Below are positions 6,594 through 17,705 of a DNA stretch of 18,739 bases, piece by piece. The notes under the pieces were generated by a model. That model worked only from the letters and a program-made list of their open reading frames with translations. It did not search any database and was not told where the DNA came from. Made by a program: the position numbers and the translations under genes. The stretch is from an uncultured Collinsella sp. GTDB taxonomy: Bacteria > Actinomycetota > Coriobacteriia > Coriobacteriales > Coriobacteriaceae. The stretch is from NCBI GenBank assembly GCA_902475825.1, contig CABSBA010000007.1, positions 1 through 18,739 on the forward strand, given 5' to 3'. The first letter of the stretch is position 1, and each line of letters starts with the position of its first letter.

Positions 6594-6617
6594 GGCCCGC
6601 CAAACATGTGGCGGGCC
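6594..6617 (-). promoter_or_regulatory. GC-rich leader hairpin just upstream of htrA
   Basis: Perfect 8-bp all-GC stem, GGCCCGCC (6594-6601) with GGCGGGCC (6610-6617), loop 8 nt. On the minus strand it is followed by TTTGGTTATTT and then the htrA ribosome binding site, only 29 nt from the start codon. There is no room for a promoter between hairpin and gene, so it should lie inside the htrA leader. It could be an attenuator, a stability element, or a weak terminator for upstream transcription. Confidence 0.5.
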
Positions 6618-6772: not shown

Positions 6773-7435
6773 CTAATCCTTAAACAGATAGCCCACGCCG
6801 CGGACGGTGGTGATATGTGCCGCGATCTGCGGGCCCACCTTGGAGCGGATGCGTCGGATGTGCACGTCGACGGTACGCGTACCGCCGCAGTACTCAAAGC
6901 CCCACACGCGGTGCAGCAGTACCTCGCGGCTGTAGGCACGGTTGGGATGCGTCGCCAAAAAGCTCAGCAGCGAGTACTCCATCAGCGTCAGGTCGATGGG
7001 CTCGTTATCGAGTGTCACCTGGTAGGTAGCCAGGTTAATCTCGAGGTTATCGATGTTGAGCACATCGTCGGCGGCGACGGTCTCCTCCTCGCCCATCAGG
7101 CGCTGTGCGCGAGCCTTGAGCTCGTTGGGCGTCGCCGTGGGGCATACAAAGTCGGCATGCGCGTGATTCGGCAGGCGCAGGGTGCCGAGCGCCTCGTCGT
7201 CGACAATCACCAACATGGGGACGCCGCCGCGATCGTCAAGCCACTTGGCAATCTGATCGATGCGGTCGCTGCGGATACCGTCGGAATCGAGGATCAGCAG
7301 GTCAAAGTCGTGCGCCGCAGTCGGCGAATCGGGGGTAGCCAGGCTCACCTCGACACCCAGGGTGGTCGTCAAGCTGCGGGCAAACTCGTGGAAGCGCGTC
7401 GTGCGCGCCATGAACAGGGCACTCTTTTCGGACAT
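6773..7435 (-). CDS. Orphan OmpR-family response regulator, GlnR-like
   Basis: 220 residues from the ATG at 7435, chosen because GGAGG lies at 7441-7445. Residues 1-115 are receiver-like but degenerate. D50 sits at the phospho-acceptor position (LLILDSDG), the usual acidic pair near residues 8-12 is absent (SALFMART), and the KPF lysine is replaced (VCPTATPNEL). Residues 125-218 are an OmpR-type winged helix (LTLMEYSLLSFLA, then VWGFEYCGGTRTVDVHIRR), closely resembling actinobacterial GlnR, a nitrogen regulator that also lacks a normal phosphorylation pocket. There is no kinase gene beside it. It follows the glutamine-synthetase gene by 50 nt with no terminator between, so the two are probably co-transcribed. 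The GlnR assignment is from recalled family features. Confidence 0.82.
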   Translation of the reverse strand: MSEKSALFMARTTRFHEFARSLTTTLGVEVSLATPDSPTAAHDFDLLILDSDGIRSDRIDQIAKWLDDRGGVPMLVIVDDEALGTLRLPNHAHADFVCPTATPNELKARAQRLMGEEETVAADDVLNIDNLEINLATYQVTLDNEPIDLTLMEYSLLSFLATHPNRAYSREVLLHRVWGFEYCGGTRTVDVHIRRIRSKVGPQIAAHITTVRGVGYLFKD

Positions 7436-7485: not shown

Positions 7486-8823
7486 TTAGGAGTTCGCCAG
7501 ATAATGCTTGATCTCCCACTCGGTGATCGTGGACTCAAACTTATGCCACTCGTTGCGCTTCTTTTTGAGGAAGAAGCTGTGGATGTGCTCGCCGAGGGCA
7601 TCCTTCATAAACTGCGAGTCCTCAAAGACGTCGAGTGCCTCTTTGAGCGAGCGCGGCAGCGGCGTGTAGCCGGCCTCGAGCATCTGACGGTCGGTGAGTT
7701 TGAGCGTCTCGGCCGTGGCCTCGGGCGGGAGCTCCAGCTTGCGCTCGATGCCATCGAGACCGGCCGCCAGCGTGACGGCGTTGACCAGGTACGGATTGGC
7801 CATGGGGTCGGGGCTACGAAGCTCGATGCGCGTGGACAGCTGCTTGCCGGGCTTGTAGACCGGGATGCGGATCATGCTCGCGCGGTTGCGCAGGCCCCAT
7901 GTGGCGTACTGCGGCACGGAGTCGCCGCCCGTGGTGATGCGCTTGTACGAGTTGACCGTGGGGTTGGTGATGGCGCTAATCTCGCGCGCGTGCGCCAGGA
8001 TGCCGGCCATGTAGTGCTTGGCGATATCGGAGAGGTGGTACTTCTCGTCATCCTCGCCCCAAAAGACGTTGTTGCCGTCGTGGTCGAACAGCGACTGATG
8101 CAAAAACATGGCGCTGCCGTCCTCGCCCGCCAACGGCTTGGGCATAAAGGAGGCATGGCAACCGCTCTCGTAGGCCTGCTGCTTAATGATGAGTTTGGCC
8201 GTGGTGATGGCGTCGGACATGCTCAGGGCCTCGGCGTGGCGCAGGCTCATGCCGTGTTGCGAGCGGCCGGCGGCGTGGAAGGTGTACTCCACGGGCACGG
8301 ACATCTTCTCGAGCGTGAGGACCGTGTTGCGACGCAGGTCGCGGGCGGCGTCGCTCACCGAAAGATCAAAGTAGCCCACGTTGTCGAGCGGCTCGGGGGT
8401 GTGCTCGTCGGGGAAGTAGTAGTACTCCAGCTCGGCGCCCACGTTGAGCAGATAGCCGGCCTTCTCGGCCTTGTAGAACATGCGGCGCAACGCATCGCGC
8501 GGGTCGCCGGCAAACGGCTTGCGATCGGGAGTGCACACGTCGCAGAACACGCGGGCAACGCCGTTATGGCTCGGGCGCCACGGCAGGATCTGGAAGGTCG
8601 AAGCATCGGGGAATGCGAGCATGTCGGCTTCCTCGGGCGTGGCAAAGCCCTCGATAGCGGAGCCGTCAAAGCCAATACCCTCCTCAAAAGCGACCTCGAG
8701 GTCCTCGGGGCTAATGGCAAAGTTCTTGAGGCGGCCGAGAATGTCGACAAACCACAGACGCACAAAGCGGATGTCACGCTGCTCTACGGAGCGGAGTACG
8801 TAATCGATGTTCTGCTGGTTCAT
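7486..8823 (-). CDS. glnA: Type I glutamine synthetase family protein with altered active site
   Basis: 445 residues, the length of Bacillus-type (GSI-alpha) enzymes, without the adenylylation region of GSI-beta. Beta-grasp domain about 15-100 (FDGSAIEGF at 52-60), catalytic barrel about 108-445. Conserved parts: ELE (131-133), NPTVNSYKR (287-295), NRASMIRIP, STRIELRS (330-337). Against B. subtilis GlnA recalled from memory, HEVAPGQHEID reads HAAGRSQHGMS here. The n1-metal glutamates become A184 and G191, the n2 histidine becomes F240 (GSAMFLH), and the flap glutamate becomes S302. Normal ATP-dependent glutamine synthesis is therefore doubtful, and a regulatory or different ligase role is possible. 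The codons were re-read directly and the frame is intact. Start supported by AAAGGGGA at 8830-8837. Confidence 0.88.
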   Translation of the reverse strand: MNQQNIDYVLRSVEQRDIRFVRLWFVDILGRLKNFAISPEDLEVAFEEGIGFDGSAIEGFATPEEADMLAFPDASTFQILPWRPSHNGVARVFCDVCTPDRKPFAGDPRDALRRMFYKAEKAGYLLNVGAELEYYYFPDEHTPEPLDNVGYFDLSVSDAARDLRRNTVLTLEKMSVPVEYTFHAAGRSQHGMSLRHAEALSMSDAITTAKLIIKQQAYESGCHASFMPKPLAGEDGSAMFLHQSLFDHDGNNVFWGEDDEKYHLSDIAKHYMAGILAHAREISAITNPTVNSYKRITTGGDSVPQYATWGLRNRASMIRIPVYKPGKQLSTRIELRSPDPMANPYLVNAVTLAAGLDGIERKLELPPEATAETLKLTDRQMLEAGYTPLPRSLKEALDVFEDSQFMKDALGEHIHSFFLKKKRNEWHKFESTITEWEIKHYLANS

Positions 8824-8858: not shown

Positions 8859-8904
8859 TCTATATCGCAGATACTATCGCAGAAAAATGTTTCCGCAGGG
8901 TTAA
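8859..8904 (-). promoter_or_regulatory. Candidate glnA promoter with GlnR-type binding site
   Basis: Reading the minus strand: TTAAC (8904-8900), six bases, GAAAC (8893-8889). This matches the GTNAC-N6-GAAAC half-site pair known for actinobacterial GlnR, with one change (T for G). One base further on is TTTTTC (8887-8882) as a weak -35, then 17 bp to TATAGA (8864-8859) as -10. An alternative -10 is TAGTAT (8876-8871), which would place the box over the -35. Either layout fits an activator site. A second GAAAC stands alone at 8852-8848. Confidence 0.5.
8863..8883. repeat. Tandem 9-bp direct repeat in the glnA promoter
   Basis: TATCGCAGA occurs at 8863-8871 and again at 8875-8883, three bases apart, inside the predicted promoter spacer. 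The 12-bp period is close to one helical turn, so it could be a second regulator site. Confidence 0.55.
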
Positions 8905-10104: not shown

Positions 10105-10797
10105 CTAGATAGACGAGTCTTTGGACAGCTCAAAATAGTCGGGATGCATGGCGATAACCGGGCCCTGCTCCTCGGGCATCAGGTGCAGGTGCGTCTCTGC
10201 CAGATAGCTCGCCGCGTCGGTATCGCCCCTCTTAATGGCCTCGAGAATCCGGCGATGCTGTCGACGAATCGGCTCCCAATCCAGGTCCTGCGACACCATA
10301 CGCAACCAGTTGTATCGCTCAAAATGCGTGTTGACGCTCTTCATCCAATCCCACAGCATGTGACGGCCGGCAATCACGAAACACGTCTCATGGAACAGGT
10401 TGTCCAGATCGAAAAAGCGACGCGTTTCGCTATGGTCGAGCGACTCGGACTCGGCAAGAATCTGCTCGAGCCGATGCTTTTGCTCGGGCGAGGCGGCCGA
10501 ACAGCATTTAATGAGTACGCTTCTTTCGAGTTTCTCGCGCAAGAAACAGGCATTCTCGGCGTGTTCCATGCTGATCTTAGAGACGTAGGTGCCGCTCTTG
10601 GGACGCGTTTCCACCAGCTCCTGCTCACGCAAGCGCACAAAGGACTCGCGAATGGGCGTGCGCCCGATTCCCGTCTCCTTTTCCAGACCAATCGCCGAAA
10701 GGCGCGTGCCGGGCTTGAGCTCGGCATAGATGATCTTGGAGCGCAATGCGTTGTATGCCTGATCTTGCAGGCTCTGATTATGCTGGTGTTGTTCCAT
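10105..10797 (-). CDS. GntR family transcriptional regulator, FadR/FCD subfamily
   Basis: 230 residues, typical of the subfamily. Residues 10-75 are the GntR winged helix (KPGTRLSAIGLEKETGIGRT, then PIRESFVRLREQELVE), and 82-210 the all-helical FCD ligand domain. Candidate metal or ligand residues in FCD are D132 and H136 (DNLFHE), H181 (RQHRRIL) and H203. Such proteins bind DNA as dimers and usually respond to an organic acid. The start is preceded by GAGGG. It lies between lacI and the flavin oxidoreductase on the same strand, about 210 bp from the latter, so control of that gene is plausible but unproven. A likely terminator-like hairpin separates them. Confidence 0.9.
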   Translation of the reverse strand: MEQHQHNQSLQDQAYNALRSKIIYAELKPGTRLSAIGLEKETGIGRTPIRESFVRLREQELVETRPKSGTYVSKISMEHAENACFLREKLERSVLIKCCSAASPEQKHRLEQILAESESLDHSETRRFFDLDNLFHETCFVIAGRHMLWDWMKSVNTHFERYNWLRMVSQDLDWEPIRRQHRRILEAIKRGDTDAASYLAETHLHLMPEEQGPVIAMHPDYFELSKDSSI

Positions 10798-11006: not shown

Positions 11007-12956
11007 CTAGAGTTCGCAGGCAACCTTGTAGCCATCGCCGATGGCGTCGCGGATGTTGCCGCACTTGTTGGCATCGCCCAGCACGTGGGTGGCAACACCG
11101 GCTGCAGCCAGGTCGTCGGCAAGCTTGGTGTTGGGACGATAGCCCATGGCCAGCACCAGCGTATCGGCACCGGTGATGGTGTGGATCTCGCCATCCTTCT
11201 CGTAGCTGATGGCATCCTCGGTAATCTCGGTCACCTTGGCCTCGGTCAACACATGGACGCCCTTGGAGAGCATGCGCGTGATGAGCACCGCGCGACCGGC
11301 GCCGCCCTCGTTGGCGGCGAGCGTCTTGGTCATCTCGATGACGGTGACATCGCGGTTGGCCGGCGACAGGTCGTTGACCAGCGGGGCCAGGTAATCGGCC
11401 GTCTCGCAGCCGACGGTGCCGCCGCCTACGATGACGATCTTCTTGCCCGGGAAAGCCTTGCCACCCAGCAGGTCGTCAGCCGTCATAACCTGCTTAAAGC
11501 CCTGCATGAAGGCCGGAGCGATAGGCTCGGCGCCATAAGCCAGGACAACCTCGTAGCCCGCGTAGTCGCGCTGAATGTCCTCGGCCGTGAGCTCGGTACC
11601 AAAGACGCACGTGACGCCGGCCTCGGCCAGGCGACGGTACTGATACTTGATCACGCGGGTAAGCTCCTGCTTTGCCGGCGGCACGGCCGCGATGCGCATC
11701 TCGCCACCCGGTTCGTCCTGCTTGTCAACGAGCACCACGTTGTGGCCGCGCTTGGCGGCAATGTAGGCTGCCTCCATGCCCGCAGGACCAGCGCCCACAA
11801 CCAGTACGTTCTTGGCCTCGGCGGCAGGCTCGTAGCCAGCCTCGTCGCGCTCCACGTCCGGGTTGACGGTGCAGGAGATGCGCTTACCGAACATAATGCC
11901 GTTCAGGCAGCGCAGACAGCCGATGCAGGGGCGGATATCGTCGGCGTTGCCGGCGGCCGCCTTGTTGCAGAACTCGGCGTCGCACAGATTGGCGCGGCCC
12001 ATCATGCAGATGTCGGCAGCGCCGTCCTCGATCAGCTCCTCGGCGATCCAGGCCTCGTTGATGCGTCCAACGGTGGCGACGGGGATATTGACGTGCTTTT
12101 TGATCTCGCGCGAGCAGGCGGCATGCGAGGCCTGCTGCGTGCCGGCGGCGGGAATGGCGGAGCCGCGCTTGATGGTGGTACCGCCCGAGACATGAATCAT
12201 GTCGACGCCAGCCTTCTCCAAGCGACGCGAGACGTAGATCATATCGTTGAGGGTCAGGCCGCCATCGGTGTACTCGTCGCCCGAGATACGGACGTCGATG
12301 ATAAAGTCCTTGCCGCAGCGCTCGCGAATCTCGGCAATAACCTCGAGCAAGAAGCGCATACGGGCGTCGAGCGAGCCGCCGTACTCATCGGTACGCTTGT
12401 TGTAGAGCGGGGTCAAAAAACCGCCGAGCATGCCGTGGGCGTGGGCCGCATGGACCTCGACGCCATCGACACCGGCCTTCTGCATACGCACGGCAGCGTC
12501 GCCAAACTGATGCGTGAGCTCGTGGATCTCGTCGACCGTGATGGGGCGCGGCGCCTCGCGGGCGTAAGACGGGCCCACAAAGGACGGAGCGATCAGGCGC
12601 GGCGTGCCCGGAATGTTAAAGGCCATGTAGGCGGGGTGGAAGAGCTGCGGCATGATCTTGCAGCCATACTCGTGGACGGCCGCGGCGAGCTTTTCCCAGC
12701 CAGGGATAAACGTGTCGTCGTAGCAGCACATGTCACCCGGCAGATAGGTATAGGTAGGCTCGACCGTCACGACCTCGGTGATGATCAGGCCAACGCCGCC
12801 CTTGGCACGGGCACGGTAATGATCGACCAAGTCGTCGGTCACATAGCCATGATCGGCCAGGTTCGTGGACACCGGCGGCATAAAGACGCGGTTCTTGACC
12901 TCGGTCGTACCGACCTTGATCGGGCTAAAGAGCATCGGGTAGTCGGAAGACTCCAT
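11007..12956 (-). CDS. NADH:flavin oxidoreductase, 2,4-dienoyl-CoA/enoate reductase type
   Basis: 649 residues from the ATG at 12956, which has GAAAGGA upstream (the longer frame to 13001 has none). Residues 7-340 are an old-yellow-enzyme FMN barrel (KNRVFMPPVSTN, NKRTDEYGG). A 4Fe-4S cluster motif follows with C344, C347, C350 and C362. Residues 383-649 are a FAD/NAD(P)H domain with two Rossmann motifs (VVGAGPAGMEAA, IVIVGGGTVGCE). The family includes FadH, enoate reductases, BaiCD and trimethylamine dehydrogenase, which reduce C=C bonds or demethylate amines. The usual Tyr of the HGYL/EGYL motif is not present (HAAHAHGMLGGF at 169-180). The cysteine spacing is CX2CX2CX11C rather than FadH's CX2CX3CX11C. 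The substrate is unknown. Confidence 0.9.
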   Translation of the reverse strand: MESSDYPMLFSPIKVGTTEVKNRVFMPPVSTNLADHGYVTDDLVDHYRARAKGGVGLIITEVVTVEPTYTYLPGDMCCYDDTFIPGWEKLAAAVHEYGCKIMPQLFHPAYMAFNIPGTPRLIAPSFVGPSYAREAPRPITVDEIHELTHQFGDAAVRMQKAGVDGVEVHAAHAHGMLGGFLTPLYNKRTDEYGGSLDARMRFLLEVIAEIRERCGKDFIIDVRISGDEYTDGGLTLNDMIYVSRRLEKAGVDMIHVSGGTTIKRGSAIPAAGTQQASHAACSREIKKHVNIPVATVGRINEAWIAEELIEDGAADICMMGRANLCDAEFCNKAAAGNADDIRPCIGCLRCLNGIMFGKRISCTVNPDVERDEAGYEPAAEAKNVLVVGAGPAGMEAAYIAAKRGHNVVLVDKQDEPGGEMRIAAVPPAKQELTRVIKYQYRRLAEAGVTCVFGTELTAEDIQRDYAGYEVVLAYGAEPIAPAFMQGFKQVMTADDLLGGKAFPGKKIVIVGGGTVGCETADYLAPLVNDLSPANRDVTVIEMTKTLAANEGGAGRAVLITRMLSKGVHVLTEAKVTEITEDAISYEKDGEIHTITGADTLVLAMGYRPNTKLADDLAAAGVATHVLGDANKCGNIRDAIGDGYKVACEL

Positions 12957-12990
12957 ACAGGGTTCCTTTCGTTTGAGCCGCTCGGCGGCA

Positions 12991-13019
12991 GTTGCTGACA
13001 CACCTATCGTATCAGCAAC
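12991..13019 (-). promoter_or_regulatory. Operator-like palindrome over the oxidoreductase promoter
   Basis: Perfect 8-bp arms GTTGCTGA (12991-12998) and TCAGCAAC (13012-13019), spaced 13 nt, centre to centre two helical turns. On the minus strand a possible -10 TACGAT (13011-13006) lies inside, 50 nt before the start codon. A dimeric repressor bound here would block transcription. The nearby GntR and LacI proteins are candidates. Confidence 0.5.
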
Positions 13020-13202: not shown

Positions 13203-13793
13203 CTACAGCGCGCCGTCCAGCATAAGGTTCACCTTGAGCACGTTGACCGTGGGCTCGCCGAACACGCCGAGGAAACGGCCCTTGGTGCACGCGGCGATGA
13301 TGTCGCGCACCTCGTCCTCGCTTTTGCCCGTGGCCTTGGCAAGGCGCGGGACCTGGTACTCGGCGGCATCCGGAGAGATCTCCGGGTCGAGGCCGGACCC
13401 CGAACACGTCACCAGGTCGACGGGCACAGCGTCCATATCGGCATCGGGGTTGGCGGCGCGGATCTTCTTCACGCGCGCATCTATCAGCTGCCGATACTCC
13501 TCACTCGCCGGGGACAGGTTGGACGGGGTACCATACGCCATGAGCTCGCCGTCTTCGCCTTCGACAATTGACACATTCTGGATACGACCCCACATGTGGG
13601 CATCGTCATCGAAGTTCTGGCCGATGAGCACGGAACCCACAACCTTGCCGTCGACCGTAATGAGCGATCCGTTCGCCTGGTACGGAAACGCAAGCTGCGC
13701 GACGCCGGTCACCACGAGCGTGTATCCCAGGCCGCAGACGATGGTAAACAGCGCGAACACGCCAAGTGCGCGCGATGCGATACCTTTGAACAT
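13203..13793 (-). CDS. kdpC: Potassium-transporting ATPase subunit KdpC
   Basis: 196 residues, near the family norm of about 190. One N-terminal membrane helix (about 11-33), then an extracytoplasmic domain with the conserved GSVLIGQNF (53-61), MWGR and DLVTCSGSGLDPEISP signatures. KdpC stabilises the KdpFABC complex and is thought to help K+ binding or ATP affinity. The start has GGAGG upstream and lies 12 nt after kdpB. It is the last gene of the operon, followed by the terminator at 13073-13139. Confidence 0.97.
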   Translation of the reverse strand: MFKGIASRALGVFALFTIVCGLGYTLVVTGVAQLAFPYQANGSLITVDGKVVGSVLIGQNFDDDAHMWGRIQNVSIVEGEDGELMAYGTPSNLSPASEEYRQLIDARVKKIRAANPDADMDAVPVDLVTCSGSGLDPEISPDAAEYQVPRLAKATGKSEDEVRDIIAACTKGRFLGVFGEPTVNVLKVNLMLDGAL

Positions 13794-13805
13794 ACAAACC
13801 TCCGT

Positions 13806-15866
13806 CTACATCATGCCAATGCCGAGCAAGGCCAGCAGCATGTCGATAATCTTGATGAATACGAACGGCGCCACGATACCGCCCAGACCCCACACCAGCA
13901 GGTTGTGGGTCAGCAGCTGGCCGGACGAAAGCTCGCGGTACTTCACGCCTTTCAGGGCGGCAGGAATCAGCGCGACGATGACCAGCGCGTTGTAGATAAT
14001 GGCGGACAGCACGGCAGACAATGGGCTGGTGAGCCCCAGGATGTTGAGGGCGTCCAACCCGGGGTAGATCGGCGAGAATAGCGCCGGGATGATGGCGAAA
14101 TACTTGGCGACGTCGTTGGCGACCGAGAAGGTCGTGAGCGAGCCGCGGGTCATGAGCAGTTGCTTGCCGATACGCACGATATCGATGAGTTTGGTGGGGC
14201 TGGAGTCGAGGTCGACCATGTTGCCGGCCTCCTTGGCGGCCTGGGTTCCCGTGTTCATGGCCACGGCGACGTCCGCCTGGGCGAGCGCCGGTGCATCGTT
14301 GGTGCCATCGCCGGTCATGGCGACCAGGTGGCCCTCGCGCTGGAACGCGCGGATCTTCTCGAGCTTGCCCTCGGGGGTGGCCTCGGCCAGGAAGTCGTCC
14401 ACGCCCGCCTCGGCTGCGATGGCGGCGGCAGTCAGCGGGTTATCACCCGTCACCATGATGGTCTTGATACCCATGCGGCGCAGATCGGCGAACTTTTCCT
14501 TCACGCCGGACTTGATGATGTCCTTAAGGTAGACAACACCCAGCACGCGTCGGTCCTTTGCCACGACCAACGGGGTGCCGCCCACCTTCGCAATGCGTTC
14601 GACGGCCTCGTCGCACTCCTTCGAGAACACTCCTCCGGCAGCCTCCACATAAGCGCGAACGGAATCGGCCGCACCCTTGCGAATCTCGCTGTCGGCGTAG
14701 TTCACACCGGACATGCGGGTCGCCGCGGTGAAGGGGATGAACTCCATGCCCTTATCCTCGAGCGTGCGGCCGCGCAGCCCAAACTGCTCCTTGGCGAGCA
14801 CGACGATGGAGCGGCCTTCGGGGGTCTCGTCCGCCAGAGAGGACAGCTGCGCGGCATCGGCGAGTTCTGCCGGATCGACACCGTCGACCGGAATGAACTC
14901 AGCGGCCTGGCGGTTGCCCAAGGTGATGGTACCGGTCTTATCGAGCATGAGGATGTCGACGTCGCCGGCGGCCTCGATGGCGCGACCGGACATGGCCAGC
15001 ACGTTGGCCTCGTTCAGTCGGCTCATGCCGGCGATGCCAATGGCGGACAGCAGCGCACCAATGGTGGTGGGCGCCAGACAGACGAGCAAGGCAACGAGCG
15101 TGGTCACAGCGGTGGGGTTCGCCATACCGTTGAGCCCTGCAGAGAAACTCGAGTAGCAGTACAGTGCGAGCGTCACGAGGATGAAGATGACGGACAGAGC
15201 AACCAGAAAGATCTCGAGCGCGACCTCGTTGGGGGTCTTCTTGCGGGCGGCGCCCTCGACCATGGCGATCATCTTGTCCAGGAAGCTCTGGCCAGGCTCG
15301 CTGGTGATTTTCACCACAATCCAATCGGAAAGCACGGTGGTGCCGCCAGTGACGGCAGAACGATCGCCGCCAGCCTCGCGAACCACGGGTGCAGACTCGC
15401 CGGTGATGGCCGACTCATCAACCGAGGCGGCACCCTCGATGACATCGCCGTCTCCCGGAATCTGCTCGCCGGCGCGCACGACCACCAGATCCCCGCGTGA
15501 GAGCTCGGTACCGGGAACGACCGTGAAGCGGTCCTTATCCTCGACGGACTCGATGCGATGGGCCTCGACGTCCTTTTTCGCCGCACGCAGGGAGTCTGCC
15601 TGCGCCTTACCGCGGCCCTCGGCAAGTGCCTCGGCAAAATTTGAAAAGAGGTCGGTCAGCCAGAGAATGACGGCAATGGCAATCACATAGTACGTGGGAA
15701 CGTCGGCGTCCTGTACCCCAAAAATAGAGGCGATGGCCAGAATGGAGGTCATGGCGGCCGACAGCCACACCAGGAACATGACCGGGTTTTGGACCTGGAC
15801 ACGGGGGTCAAGCTTGGCAAATGAATCGCGCACCGCGCGGCTCATCATGTCTTTTTGCATAGCCAT
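13806..15866 (-). CDS. kdpB: Potassium-transporting ATPase ATP-binding subunit KdpB
   Basis: 686 residues, a P-type ATPase that powers K+ uptake through KdpA. The actuator domain has TGES (155-158). Its serine S158 corresponds to the inhibitory phosphorylation site known in E. coli. The phosphorylation site is D309 in DKTGT. The nucleotide domain contains [12 protein letters not shown], and the hinge TGDGTND (518-524). Seven membrane helices are expected. The start at 15866 has AAAGGAG overlapping the kdpA stop, suggesting coupled translation. A second ATG two codons in is also possible. Confidence 0.98.
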
Positions 15867-15881
15867 AAATCTGCGACTCCT

Positions 15882-17705
15882 TTACGCAACCATCTGGAAG
15901 AATTCGGCAACGGGACCAAGCGCCAACGCCGGGAAGAAGCTCAGGGCGCCAATCAGCAGAACGACGAATACCAGCAGGAACACGAACATGGCATTGGTGG
16001 TGGAAAGCGTGCCGGCGCTCTCGGCGACCTTGCCCTTCCCGGCCAGCGAGCCCGCGATGGCGAGCGTGCCCGCAATCGGCAGGAACCGCGCGAACAGCAT
16101 CTCGATACCCAACAGCACGTTGATCCACGGGATGTTGCAGTTCATGCCGGCGAATGCGGAGCCGTTGTTGCCGCCAGCCGAAGTAAGGGTGTACAGGACC
16201 TCGGAGAAGCCATGCGCCCCGCCGTTGTTGAGTTGGTCGACAAGACCGGGCACCATGCAGGCGATAGCGGAGCTCACCAGAATGGCGAACGGGGTGGCGA
16301 GACACAGAACCACCGCCCAGCGCATCTCGGTCGGCTCGATCTTCTTACCCAGGAACTCGGGCGTGCGGCCGACCATAAGGCCGGCGATAAACACCGTGAG
16401 GATGGCGAAGCCGATCATGCCGTACAGGCCGCAGCCCACGCCGCCGAACACCACCTCGCCCAGAGCTATCTGGAGCATCTGGACAAACCCGCCGAGCGGG
16501 GTGTAGGAGTCGTGCATGGAGTTGACCGAGCCGTTGGAAGCAGCCGTCGTGAAAGCGGACCAGGTGGAAGAGGAGGCGATGCCAAAGCGGCTCTCCTTGC
16601 CCTCCATGTTGCCGCCCGCCTGGCCATCGGTCATCTCGATGTTGACCGCGCCGCCATCTGCCAGCTGCGGGGTGCCCATATGCTCGTTAACGGCGATGAT
16701 GCCGGTAAAGACCACGAGCAGGATAAGCATCGCCGCGAAGATGGCCTTGCCCTGCCTGGCATTCTTGACGCCGATACCGAAGGTGAAGCAGCAGGCGGCC
16801 GGGATCAGCAGCAGGCTGGTCATCTCGATGATGTTGGTGAAGGCACTGGGGTTCTCATACGGATGGGCGGAGTTCACACCGAAGAAGCCGCCGCCGTTGG
16901 TGCCGGACTGCTTGATGGCGACCTGAGGAGCCGCGGGCCCCTGGGGCAGGAACTGATCGGTGACCACGCGCGCGCCCTCGACAACCTTGCCGTCGACCTT
17001 GACCGTGTCGCCCTCGATCTGGGCGCCGTCGATGACGCTCCAGCCGCCGTCTGCATTAGGCTGGACAGCGACGGGCTCTACGAGCTCAGCCTTCTGAGCC
17101 GGCTGGAAGTTGGAGATGACGCCACCGGCAGCCAGGCAGATGCCGAACACGAGGTTCAGCGGGATGAGCACATACAGGACGGTGCGGGTGAGGTCGACCC
17201 AGAAGGAACCCAGACCCTGCTCCTTGACCTGACGGAAGCCGCGGATCAGCGCGAACATGACCGCGATACCGGTGCCGGCGGAAACGAAGTTCTGCACGGT
17301 GAGACCCATGAACTGCACAAGGTAGGACAGGGTGGTCTCACCGGAGTAGGACTGCCAGTTGGTATTGGTTATGAAGGAAGCAGCCGTATTGAACGACAGG
17401 TCCCATGACACACCCGGCAGGTGCTGGGGATTGCCTGGCAAGAAGGACTGAAACACCTGGAGTGCCACAAGAGCCACGAGGCCGATCCCCGAAAAGACCA
17501 GCACGCTCGCCAGATAGCGCCTACACCCCATCTGCTCTGCCGCGTCGATGCGAAGCAGACGATAGACGCCACGCTCCACAGGAGCAATCACAGGCGACAG
17601 GAACGTATGCTCACCATCCATGATATGGGCCATGAACCGACCGAGCGGAACGGCCAGGACGACGAGCACGGCAAAGTACAAGATGTACTGAATCGCAGCG
17701 TCCAT
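15882..17705 (-). CDS. kdpA: Potassium-transporting ATPase channel subunit KdpA
   Basis: 607 residues, about 50 more than E. coli KdpA (557). KdpA binds and conducts K+ across the membrane. The four pore loops are visible: TNTNW (113-117), TNGGG (269-273), SNG (390-392) and GGNNGS (511-516). Much of the extra length is a polar segment at about 200-250 before the second pore loop (QPNADGGWSVIDGAQIEGD), expected outside the cell. The start at 17705 lies 3 nt after the kdpF stop, with GAGGAG inside kdpF as ribosome binding site, so the two are translationally linked. Confidence 0.97.
   Translation of the reverse strand: MDAAIQYILYFAVLVVLAVPLGRFMAHIMDGEHTFLSPVIAPVERGVYRLLRIDAAEQMGCRRYLASVLVFSGIGLVALVALQVFQSFLPGNPQHLPGVSWDLSFNTAASFITNTNWQSYSGETTLSYLVQFMGLTVQNFVSAGTGIAVMFALIRGFRQVKEQGLGSFWVDLTRTVLYVLIPLNLVFGICLAAGGVISNFQPAQKAELVEPVAVQPNADGGWSVIDGAQIEGDTVKVDGKVVEGARVVTDQFLPQGPAAPQVAIKQSGTNGGGFFGVNSAHPYENPSAFTNIIEMTSLLLIPAACCFTFGIGVKNARQGKAIFAAMLILLVVFTGIIAVNEHMGTPQLADGGAVNIEMTDGQAGGNMEGKESRFGIASSSTWSAFTTAASNGSVNSMHDSYTPLGGFVQMLQIALGEVVFGGVGCGLYGMIGFAILTVFIAGLMVGRTPEFLGKKIEPTEMRWAVVLCLATPFAILVSSAIACMVPGLVDQLNNGGAHGFSEVLYTLTSAGGNNGSAFAGMNCNIPWINVLLGIEMLFARFLPIAGTLAIAGSLAGKGKVAESAGTLSTTNAMFVFLLVFVVLLIGALSFFPALALGPVAEFFQMVA

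Follow-up and report, generated by a model that had tools for sequence, protein, structure and literature searches.

Studies have shown that glutamine synthetase (GS) can itself act as a nitrogen signal. For example, GS of the Bacillus type signals to the MerR-type regulator GlnR, the C-terminal tail of GlnR enters the GS active site, and GS reports glutamine through the Arg62–Glu304 pair, as described in the part of PMC9249791 available to us. Lengsin is a non-catalytic dodecamer of the GSI family according to the accessible portion of PMC2667176. Some GS-fold ligases have switched substrates: GlnA3 and PauA7 keep the equivalents of E129, E131, E212, E220 and H269 but lose those of E327 and D50 (PMC5403932, available sections), and NpaA1 keeps the metal ligands while its flap and D50 residues are replaced (PMC11335346, available sections). 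The signal to which the OmpR-type GlnR of actinobacteria responds is unknown, no kinase is co-localised with it, and it was not phosphorylated in vitro; Ser/Thr phosphorylation and Lys acetylation have been reported as signals for the Streptomyces GlnR, and the consensus of the M. smegmatis GlnR is t/gTAAC-n6-Gc/aAAC (all from the available part of PMC10704036). In the literature that we searched by title and by the start of the abstract, no bacterial GS pseudoenzyme was described. The search, in which subscription journals were covered only to a small extent, also returned no description of the GS clade reported below, no paper on GlnR and glutamine synthetase together with Coriobacteri-, and none on GlnR together with Collinsella; what it returned for Collinsella with glutamine synthetase and nitrogen regulation dealt with other subjects, judging by title.

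Collinsella- and Olsenella-type bacteria are common gut residents. In this study, we analysed a stretch of 18,739 nucleotides from an uncultured Collinsella sp. (the window), in which a GS homologue is followed by a GlnR-like regulator. The features that matter here are the following:

7486..8823, minus strand: predicted GS-fold pseudoenzyme gene, 445 aa, with both GS domains; A184, G191 and F240 present, flap Glu absent
6773..7435, minus strand: OmpR/PhoB-type GlnR-like regulator gene, 220 aa, PF00486, 50 bp downstream of the pseudoenzyme gene
8889..8904, minus strand: GlnR box-like site TTAAC-CCTGCG-GAAAC, lying 81 bp ahead of the start of the pseudoenzyme gene
6594..6617, minus strand: hairpin resembling a terminator, downstream of the regulator; it would close a predicted unit of two genes ahead of htrA

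We lean towards the view that the GS of this clade is a non-catalytic nitrogen sensor, which is proposed to pass its signal to GlnR by direct binding.

The active site and its distribution

The initial annotation had described an intact gene of full length, and this holds. The open reading frame runs without interruption from 8823 to 7486 on the minus strand, and its 445-aa product carries both the beta-grasp domain (PF03951, 96 bits) and the catalytic domain (PF00120, 343 bits) of GS. The GS fold of the window protein is predicted to be retained. Against the GSI equivalog model TIGR00653 the protein scored 403.4 bits, below the curated cut-off of 429.15. The best 120 of the 7985 scored candidates in the homologue search were all 99–100% identical to the window protein, and three Collinsella records were 99% identical to it. 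Of the sampled words of the window, 25% are shared by the nearest genome.

Active-site residues were mapped onto the window protein by alignment with the Paenibacillus polymyxa GS (PDB 7tdp_A). E187 and E194 of the reference, two of the n1-metal glutamates, are replaced by A184 and G191, respectively, and the n2 histidine H243 is replaced by F240. The three metal-site substitutions first read from the sequence were therefore confirmed, and the complete set of n1 and n2 metal ligands is absent. A fourth substitution had been proposed at the flap glutamate, as S302; a flap Glu is indeed lacking, but the residue that faces E302 of the reference is D301, and S302 is an inserted residue, so that there is no Glu either way. 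Position 62 is Thr (T62), and the feedback Arg found there in Bacillus is absent. The active site has been lost only in part, because E131 (the third n1 Glu), E133 and E334 (n2), D53 and the arginines at 295, 314, 319, 332 and 336 are kept.

The distribution of these changes was followed in a class draw of 149 Coriobacteriia genomes, 137 of which had a GS homologue. The names Coriobacteriaceae-like, Atopobiaceae-like and Eggerthellaceae-like were inferred from named records (Collinsella, Atopobiaceae, Olsenella, Slackia). The genes read were all 25 Coriobacteriaceae-like ones, all 22 from matching Atopobiaceae-like genomes (of 23 genomes), 19 from the 20 Eggerthellaceae-like genomes, and 19 more (11 first copies and 8 second copies) from 11 Coriobacteriia genomes among the 70 others with a match. 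The 25 Coriobacteriaceae-like and 22 Atopobiaceae-like genes make up the 47 clade genes, which exclude the window gene; two of the loci, L001 and L010, represent a single gene.

None of the 47 clade genes retains E184, E191 or H240 (all three lost in 25/25 Coriobacteriaceae-like and 22/22 Atopobiaceae-like genes). The question whether close relatives share the substitutions, raised in the initial annotation, is thus answered: they do, and the change is not local. The metal triple was fully kept in 38/38 other genes (19 Eggerthellaceae-like, 11 first copies and 8 second copies) and in 18/18 further genes, which come from seven other families of the order (17 genomes); the triple loss was therefore seen in 0 of 56 related genes from other Coriobacteriia. 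Two distant GS-like genes, L255 and L253 (the latter from the twentieth Eggerthellaceae-like genome), also keep the triple. Because the loss occurs in 47/47 genes of two families against 0/56 in other Coriobacteriia, we believe that it is not due to chance. Among named records, the losses are shared by three from Collinsella (L083–L085), one from Atopobiaceae (L086), one from Olsenella (L087) and a Coriobacteriaceae MAG (L088), and the triple loss is absent from a Slackia record (L089). An assembly error or a local mutation was ruled out, since the losses are common to all 47 clade genes and to these six named records. In a tree of 72 proteins, from which near-duplicates (L001, L005, L007–L011, L023, L029 and L072) and later loci (L216 on) were omitted, 31 of the 47 clade genes grouped with the window gene in one branch with 100/100 support.

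The other positions behaved differently. By a simple pattern, the flap Glu was found in 17/22 Atopobiaceae-like genes and 1/25 Coriobacteriaceae-like genes; flap loss is family-dependent and does not stand as a trait of the whole clade. Position 131 is Lys or Arg in 16/22 Atopobiaceae-like genes, and position 62 is Arg in 0/47 clade genes. R295, R314, R319, R332, D53, E133 and E334 were invariant in all 85 tallied genes, and R336 was present in 83 of them. The equivalents of N264 and G265 (glutamate site) vary, and the equivalent of H271, an ADP contact, is His in just 16/47 clade genes; ligand binding may therefore be weakened. In other families of the order, three genes (L248, L249 and L250) have E131 changed to A, K or T and an altered flap with the metal triple kept. 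These partial changes look like possible intermediate stages in a graded relaxation of catalysis.

Nei–Gojobori dN/dS was 0–0.20 in 16 pairs within the clade and 0.06–0.19 in 6 pairs of GS genes with intact residues. Each of the 47 clade genes has an open reading frame with a near full-length match, and 64 residue columns are invariant across the 72 clade and non-clade proteins. Low dN/dS together with open frames in all 47 genes indicates that the pseudoenzyme gene is in use. We infer that the clade GS would not synthesise glutamine. That catalysis was lost and a function retained is well supported by the clade-wide losses, the low dN/dS, the kept fold and the presence of GSIII elsewhere in the genome, and the initial preference for a non-standard function over decay has gained ground on the same evidence.

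GSIII as the candidate catalytic enzyme

GSIII (PF12437) was matched in 68/68 genomes of the three families in the class draw (25 Coriobacteriaceae-like, 23 Atopobiaceae-like and 20 Eggerthellaceae-like, with family counts made by hand) and in 2 of the 81 remaining genomes of the draw. In one genome (G099), GSIII lies in pieces across two contigs. In the genome nearest to the window, the GS-domain genes found were the clade-type GS and GSIII and no other, and the two lie approximately 49 kb apart on one contig. One full GSIII sequence from this genome was read by eye and keeps what we take to be the usual GS motifs; the question of another GS in the genome, raised in the initial annotation, is thus answered by GSIII in the nearest genome. 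GSIII was also matched in 14/17 genomes from seven further families of the order. In 4 of these 17 genomes (G267, G436, G437 and G440), GSIII is the divergent neighbour of the GSI gene, and at the divergent GSI–GSIII loci (L243, L247, L251 and L252) approximately 0.35–0.5 kb separates the matches.

A GlnR box with at most two mismatches was found on the forward strand in 11/20 GSIII promoters of Coriobacteriaceae- and Atopobiaceae-like genomes and in 11/20 of a second batch (18 of them Eggerthellaceae-like). On the reverse strand the same test gave 7/20 and 1/20, respectively, and shuffles expect approximately 1.75/20. Control of GSIII by GlnR is only suggested by these counts. PII signalling proteins were present in 20/25 Coriobacteriaceae-like and 14/23 Atopobiaceae-like genomes. 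Therefore, another nitrogen sensor often exists, which counts against reading the GS as a sensor.

The regulator, its linkage to GS and the GlnR box

The regulator of the window matched PF00486 with 82 bits and PF21695 (GlnR_1st) weakly, with 22.4 bits against a cut-off of 27. Among four regulator homologues, one Eggerthellaceae-like protein scored 20.7 for PF21695 and three Atopobiaceae-like proteins returned no row for it. The best PDB sequence matches were 8hig and 8hih, which we take to be actinobacterial GlnR structures. The neighbour had been called GlnR-like from the start, and it does adjoin the GS gene and resemble GlnR, but of the OmpR type and not of the MerR type found in Bacillus.

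In an alignment of 32 regulator homologues, compared by eye, the DNA-binding part was highly conserved and the receiver differed. The acidic pair at the beginning of the receiver was missing in 9/9 Coriobacteriaceae-like, 7/7 Atopobiaceae-like and 9/9 Eggerthellaceae-like regulators and present in 7/7 regulators from families outside the order. Because the pair is gone in the three families and present outside, we believe that degeneration of the receiver took place within the order that carries GSIII, and GlnR there is therefore likely not switched by ordinary phosphorylation. The window regulator lacks the pair and keeps the Asp of strand 3. The phospho-Asp position is Asp in the Coriobacteriaceae-like and Atopobiaceae-like regulators and in the seven from outside the order. 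It is Glu in 9/9 Eggerthellaceae-like regulators (L046–L048, L052, L065–L068 and L070), which stand next to a GS with intact residues.

The regulator directly follows the GS gene in 25/25 Coriobacteriaceae-like loci and, with an intact GS, in 19/19 Eggerthellaceae-like loci, and it lies within 2.7 kb of 11/11 first copies of other families, again with an intact GS. In the Atopobiaceae-like family it follows in 19/22 loci, twice at 52 bp and 17 times after a stretch of 3.5–4.9 kb, so that the linkage holds in 44/47 clade loci. In the three exceptions, the contig ends 4 kb downstream (G093), 1.5 kb was read (G089), or the regulator is on another contig (G105). The stretch was scanned in one Atopobiaceae-like locus, where an amino-acid-type ABC transporter (SBP_bac_3, permease and ATPase; L058:2114–5703) lies between the pseudoenzyme and the GlnR-like gene; a gap of similar length occurs in 17/22 loci. 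The 18 further genes from the order were read with flanks of approximately 1.5 kb; the regulator was seen beside 10 of them and no regulator beside the other 8. Of seven named records, six have the regulator downstream and the seventh (L088) has just 135 bases of flank. Most simply, the linkage is older than the loss of catalysis, because it is found with an intact GS on several branches. As far as gene order and residues tell, it has outlived that loss.

The joint presence of the two genes was surveyed across the order, in 395 genomes. GS was found in 64/65 Coriobacteriaceae-like and 129/140 Atopobiaceae-like genomes, and the regulator in 64/65 and 127/140, respectively. Among the 162 genomes of the two clade families that are at least 90% complete (hand count), 160 had both genes, 2 had neither (G099 and G170) and none had just one of them; all 8 discordant genomes are less than 90% complete. 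The joint absence is weak evidence, because one deletion can remove both linked operon genes.

The box was sought in distinct promoters with at most one mismatch to GTAAC-n6-GAAAC, with Markov simulations as the control; the window stands for L003–L012, and L029, L059 and L072 were left out. On the forward strand it was found in 13/16 Coriobacteriaceae-like, 10/19 Atopobiaceae-like and 9/19 Eggerthellaceae-like promoters, in 10/11 first copies of other families and in 4/18 further genes. On the reverse strand the five groups gave 0, 1, 2, 0 and 0, respectively, and the simulations 0.05–0.16 per group. For the pooled clade promoters, this amounts to 23/35 forward against 1/35 reverse, with approximately 0.2 expected; the other 12 of the 35 distinct promoters had no box within one mismatch. 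Most sites lie 57–121 bases before the GS start. Across the whole of six genomes, exact boxes were no more frequent than the reversed control pattern (13 and 14 sites, respectively), although in one genome (G087) the single exact box is the site before the GS gene. In two genomes of the genus of the window (L165 and L166), an orthologous exact GTAAC-N6-GAAAC lies approximately 0.2 kb before a gene that was recognised by eye as encoding a binding protein of the branched-chain-amino-acid type and is a possible GlnR target. A putative regulatory link between GS and GlnR is supported by the conserved linkage, the GlnR box and the joint presence and absence of the two genes.

Between 6400 and 9100, three terminator-like sites were found against a shuffle mean of 2.2, and the role of the 6594–6617 hairpin as a terminator is suggestive only. 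A sigma-70 consensus scan of the same interval found no promoter, and Rfam at its gathering score gave no match in the window. Elsewhere in the window, a kdpABC-like potassium transport operon with KdpA-, KdpB- and KdpC-like reading frames was recognised by eye at 13203–17705 (minus strand), and no sensor kinase or regulator was recognised beside it within the window. The minus-strand gene at 11007–13001, near a GntR/FCD regulator gene at 10105–10797, encodes an FMN/FAD oxidoreductase of 664 aa that belongs to the NADH:flavin oxidoreductase family (PF00724 and PF07992).

Proposed mechanism, rival explanations and known systems

We speculated on the following course of events. The glnA of Coriobacteriia would have had, or gained, a signalling role toward its operon partner. 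GSIII would have entered near the root of the order and taken over catalysis, making that of GlnA dispensable. In the ancestor of the Coriobacteriaceae-like and Atopobiaceae-like families, the metal site could then have disappeared, with the signalling role retained. What is left of the pocket, with the n2 acids E133 and E334, the arginines and D53, may bind a nucleotide and/or an amino-acid ligand, and the pseudoenzyme may contact the receiver domain of GlnR in a ligand-dependent way. Such contact would control the dimerisation or DNA binding of GlnR at its own promoter, at other nitrogen genes and possibly at GSIII.

Tentatively, then, the GS pseudoenzyme could be the missing nitrogen sensor of the OmpR-type GlnR, binding the degenerate receiver according to its ligand; this would amount to an independent reinvention of the Bacillus GS–GlnR switch with an unrelated regulator, made possible once GSIII had taken over catalysis, and we hold this full account as a possibility short of an even chance. 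How an OmpR-type GlnR learns the nitrogen state is unknown according to the available part of PMC10704036, and a GS partner would address that gap. If the account is true, the intact GlnA beside GlnR in other Coriobacteriia may be an enzyme and a sensor at once. The link between GS and GlnR in sensing is directly testable in this clade, since catalysis and signalling would there have come apart already. The protein would be a bacterial counterpart of lengsin. For metabolic models there is a warning, as the name glnA may not denote a glutamine synthetase in these families.

Other explanations were weighed against the same data. It is unlikely that the protein is still an enzyme, acting as a ligase or kinase on another substrate with an active site that is rearranged or holds one metal. 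The invariance of R295, R314, R319, R332, D53, E133 and E334 in 85 genes (R336 in 83/85) would fit an enzyme, as would the flap Glu kept in 17/22 Atopobiaceae-like genes and the Lys or Arg at position 131 in 16/22 of them, which could replace a metal charge. However, the switched ligases keep the five metal ligands listed in the available text of PMC5403932 and lose D50 and E327, and the clade does the opposite, with D53 kept. In addition, no amine-catabolism gene was recognised nearby, the neighbours being regulators, an HtrA-type protease and, in the Atopobiaceae-like family, an ABC transporter. The changed ligase substrate that the initial annotation gave as its alternative is thus disfavoured, because the substrate-switched relatives, as far as the cited excerpts describe them, keep the ligands that are lost here. 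We also think it improbable that the protein acts on catalytic GSIII or on other proteins, as a scaffold, an inhibitor or a store, and not on GlnR. The divergent placement of GSIII beside the GS–GlnR pair in 4/17 genomes of other families hints at a link between GSI and GSIII, but the linkage in the clade is with GlnR (44/47 loci), and GSIII lies approximately 49 kb off in the nearest genome.

There is very little to be expected from the idea of a decaying relic that is kept for now because it heads the glnR transcription unit. The stepwise degradation of catalytic residues in other families (E131 and the flap in L248, L249 and L250) agrees with decay, but the frames are open and near full length in 47 genes, dN/dS is 0–0.20 in 16 pairs, 64 columns are invariant across 72 proteins, and GS is kept in G105 though glnR sits on another contig; in view of this purifying selection, the relic was set aside. 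It would surprise us even more if the protein were a moonlighting structural protein like lengsin. That a non-catalytic GSI-family dodecamer exists at all (PMC2667176, accessible portion) speaks for such a role, but lengsin is distant in sequence (PDB 2j9i, E-value 1.8e-8, against 1.6e-118 for the best enzyme with the window protein as the query), and the operon suggests no structural role.

A nitrogen sensor acting on GlnR, the reading that we prefer, has its closest parallel in the circuit of feedback-inhibited GS and GlnR in Bacillus, Paenibacillus, Listeria and Staphylococcus (FBI-GS/GlnR). There, as here, a GSI-fold gene and a nitrogen regulator share one operon; in that circuit the state of GS controls DNA binding by the regulator. 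In contrast, GS is an active enzyme there, whereas catalysis has likely been lost in this clade; its partner is a MerR-type GlnR with a C-terminal tail and not a PF00486 regulator of the OmpR/PhoB type; and it carries R62 and the flap Glu, both absent from the window protein. Because R62 is gone and, in Coriobacteriaceae-like genes, the flap Glu too, the Bacillus chemistry is not reused here. A Bacillus-type mechanism was therefore set aside, as its MerR partner and the R62/E304 pair are absent. The analogy drawn in the initial annotation survives in the linkage of GS and regulator, but its mechanism does not carry over to an OmpR/PhoB-type partner and a protein with T62 and no flap Glu. The Bacillus circuit is an analogue and not the same system.

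Lengsin, the pseudo-GS of the vertebrate lens, likewise belongs to the GSI family and has been retained in another role after losing catalysis, as is proposed here from residue losses. Unlike the clade, it is eukaryotic, distant in sequence and without a tie to a nitrogen regulator. The amine ligases GlnA3, PauA7, GmaS and NpaA1 are also GS-fold paralogues with altered active sites, some of them actinobacterial, in the available parts of the papers cited above. In GlnA3, PauA7 and NpaA1, as described there, the metals are kept and the ammonium site is changed, and for the metals and D50 the clade shows the reverse. The joint loss of D50 and E327 that marks the switched ligases was not found, as D53 is present in 85/85 genes and the flap Glu is kept in 17/22 Atopobiaceae-like genes, although it is lost in 24/25 Coriobacteriaceae-like ones. 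With the actinobacterial GlnR, an OmpR-type orphan response regulator, the adjacent regulator and the GTAAC/TTAAC-N6-GAAAC box agree in type. The available part of PMC10704036 names no GS partner for that GlnR, unlike the regulator described here, which is linked to GS.
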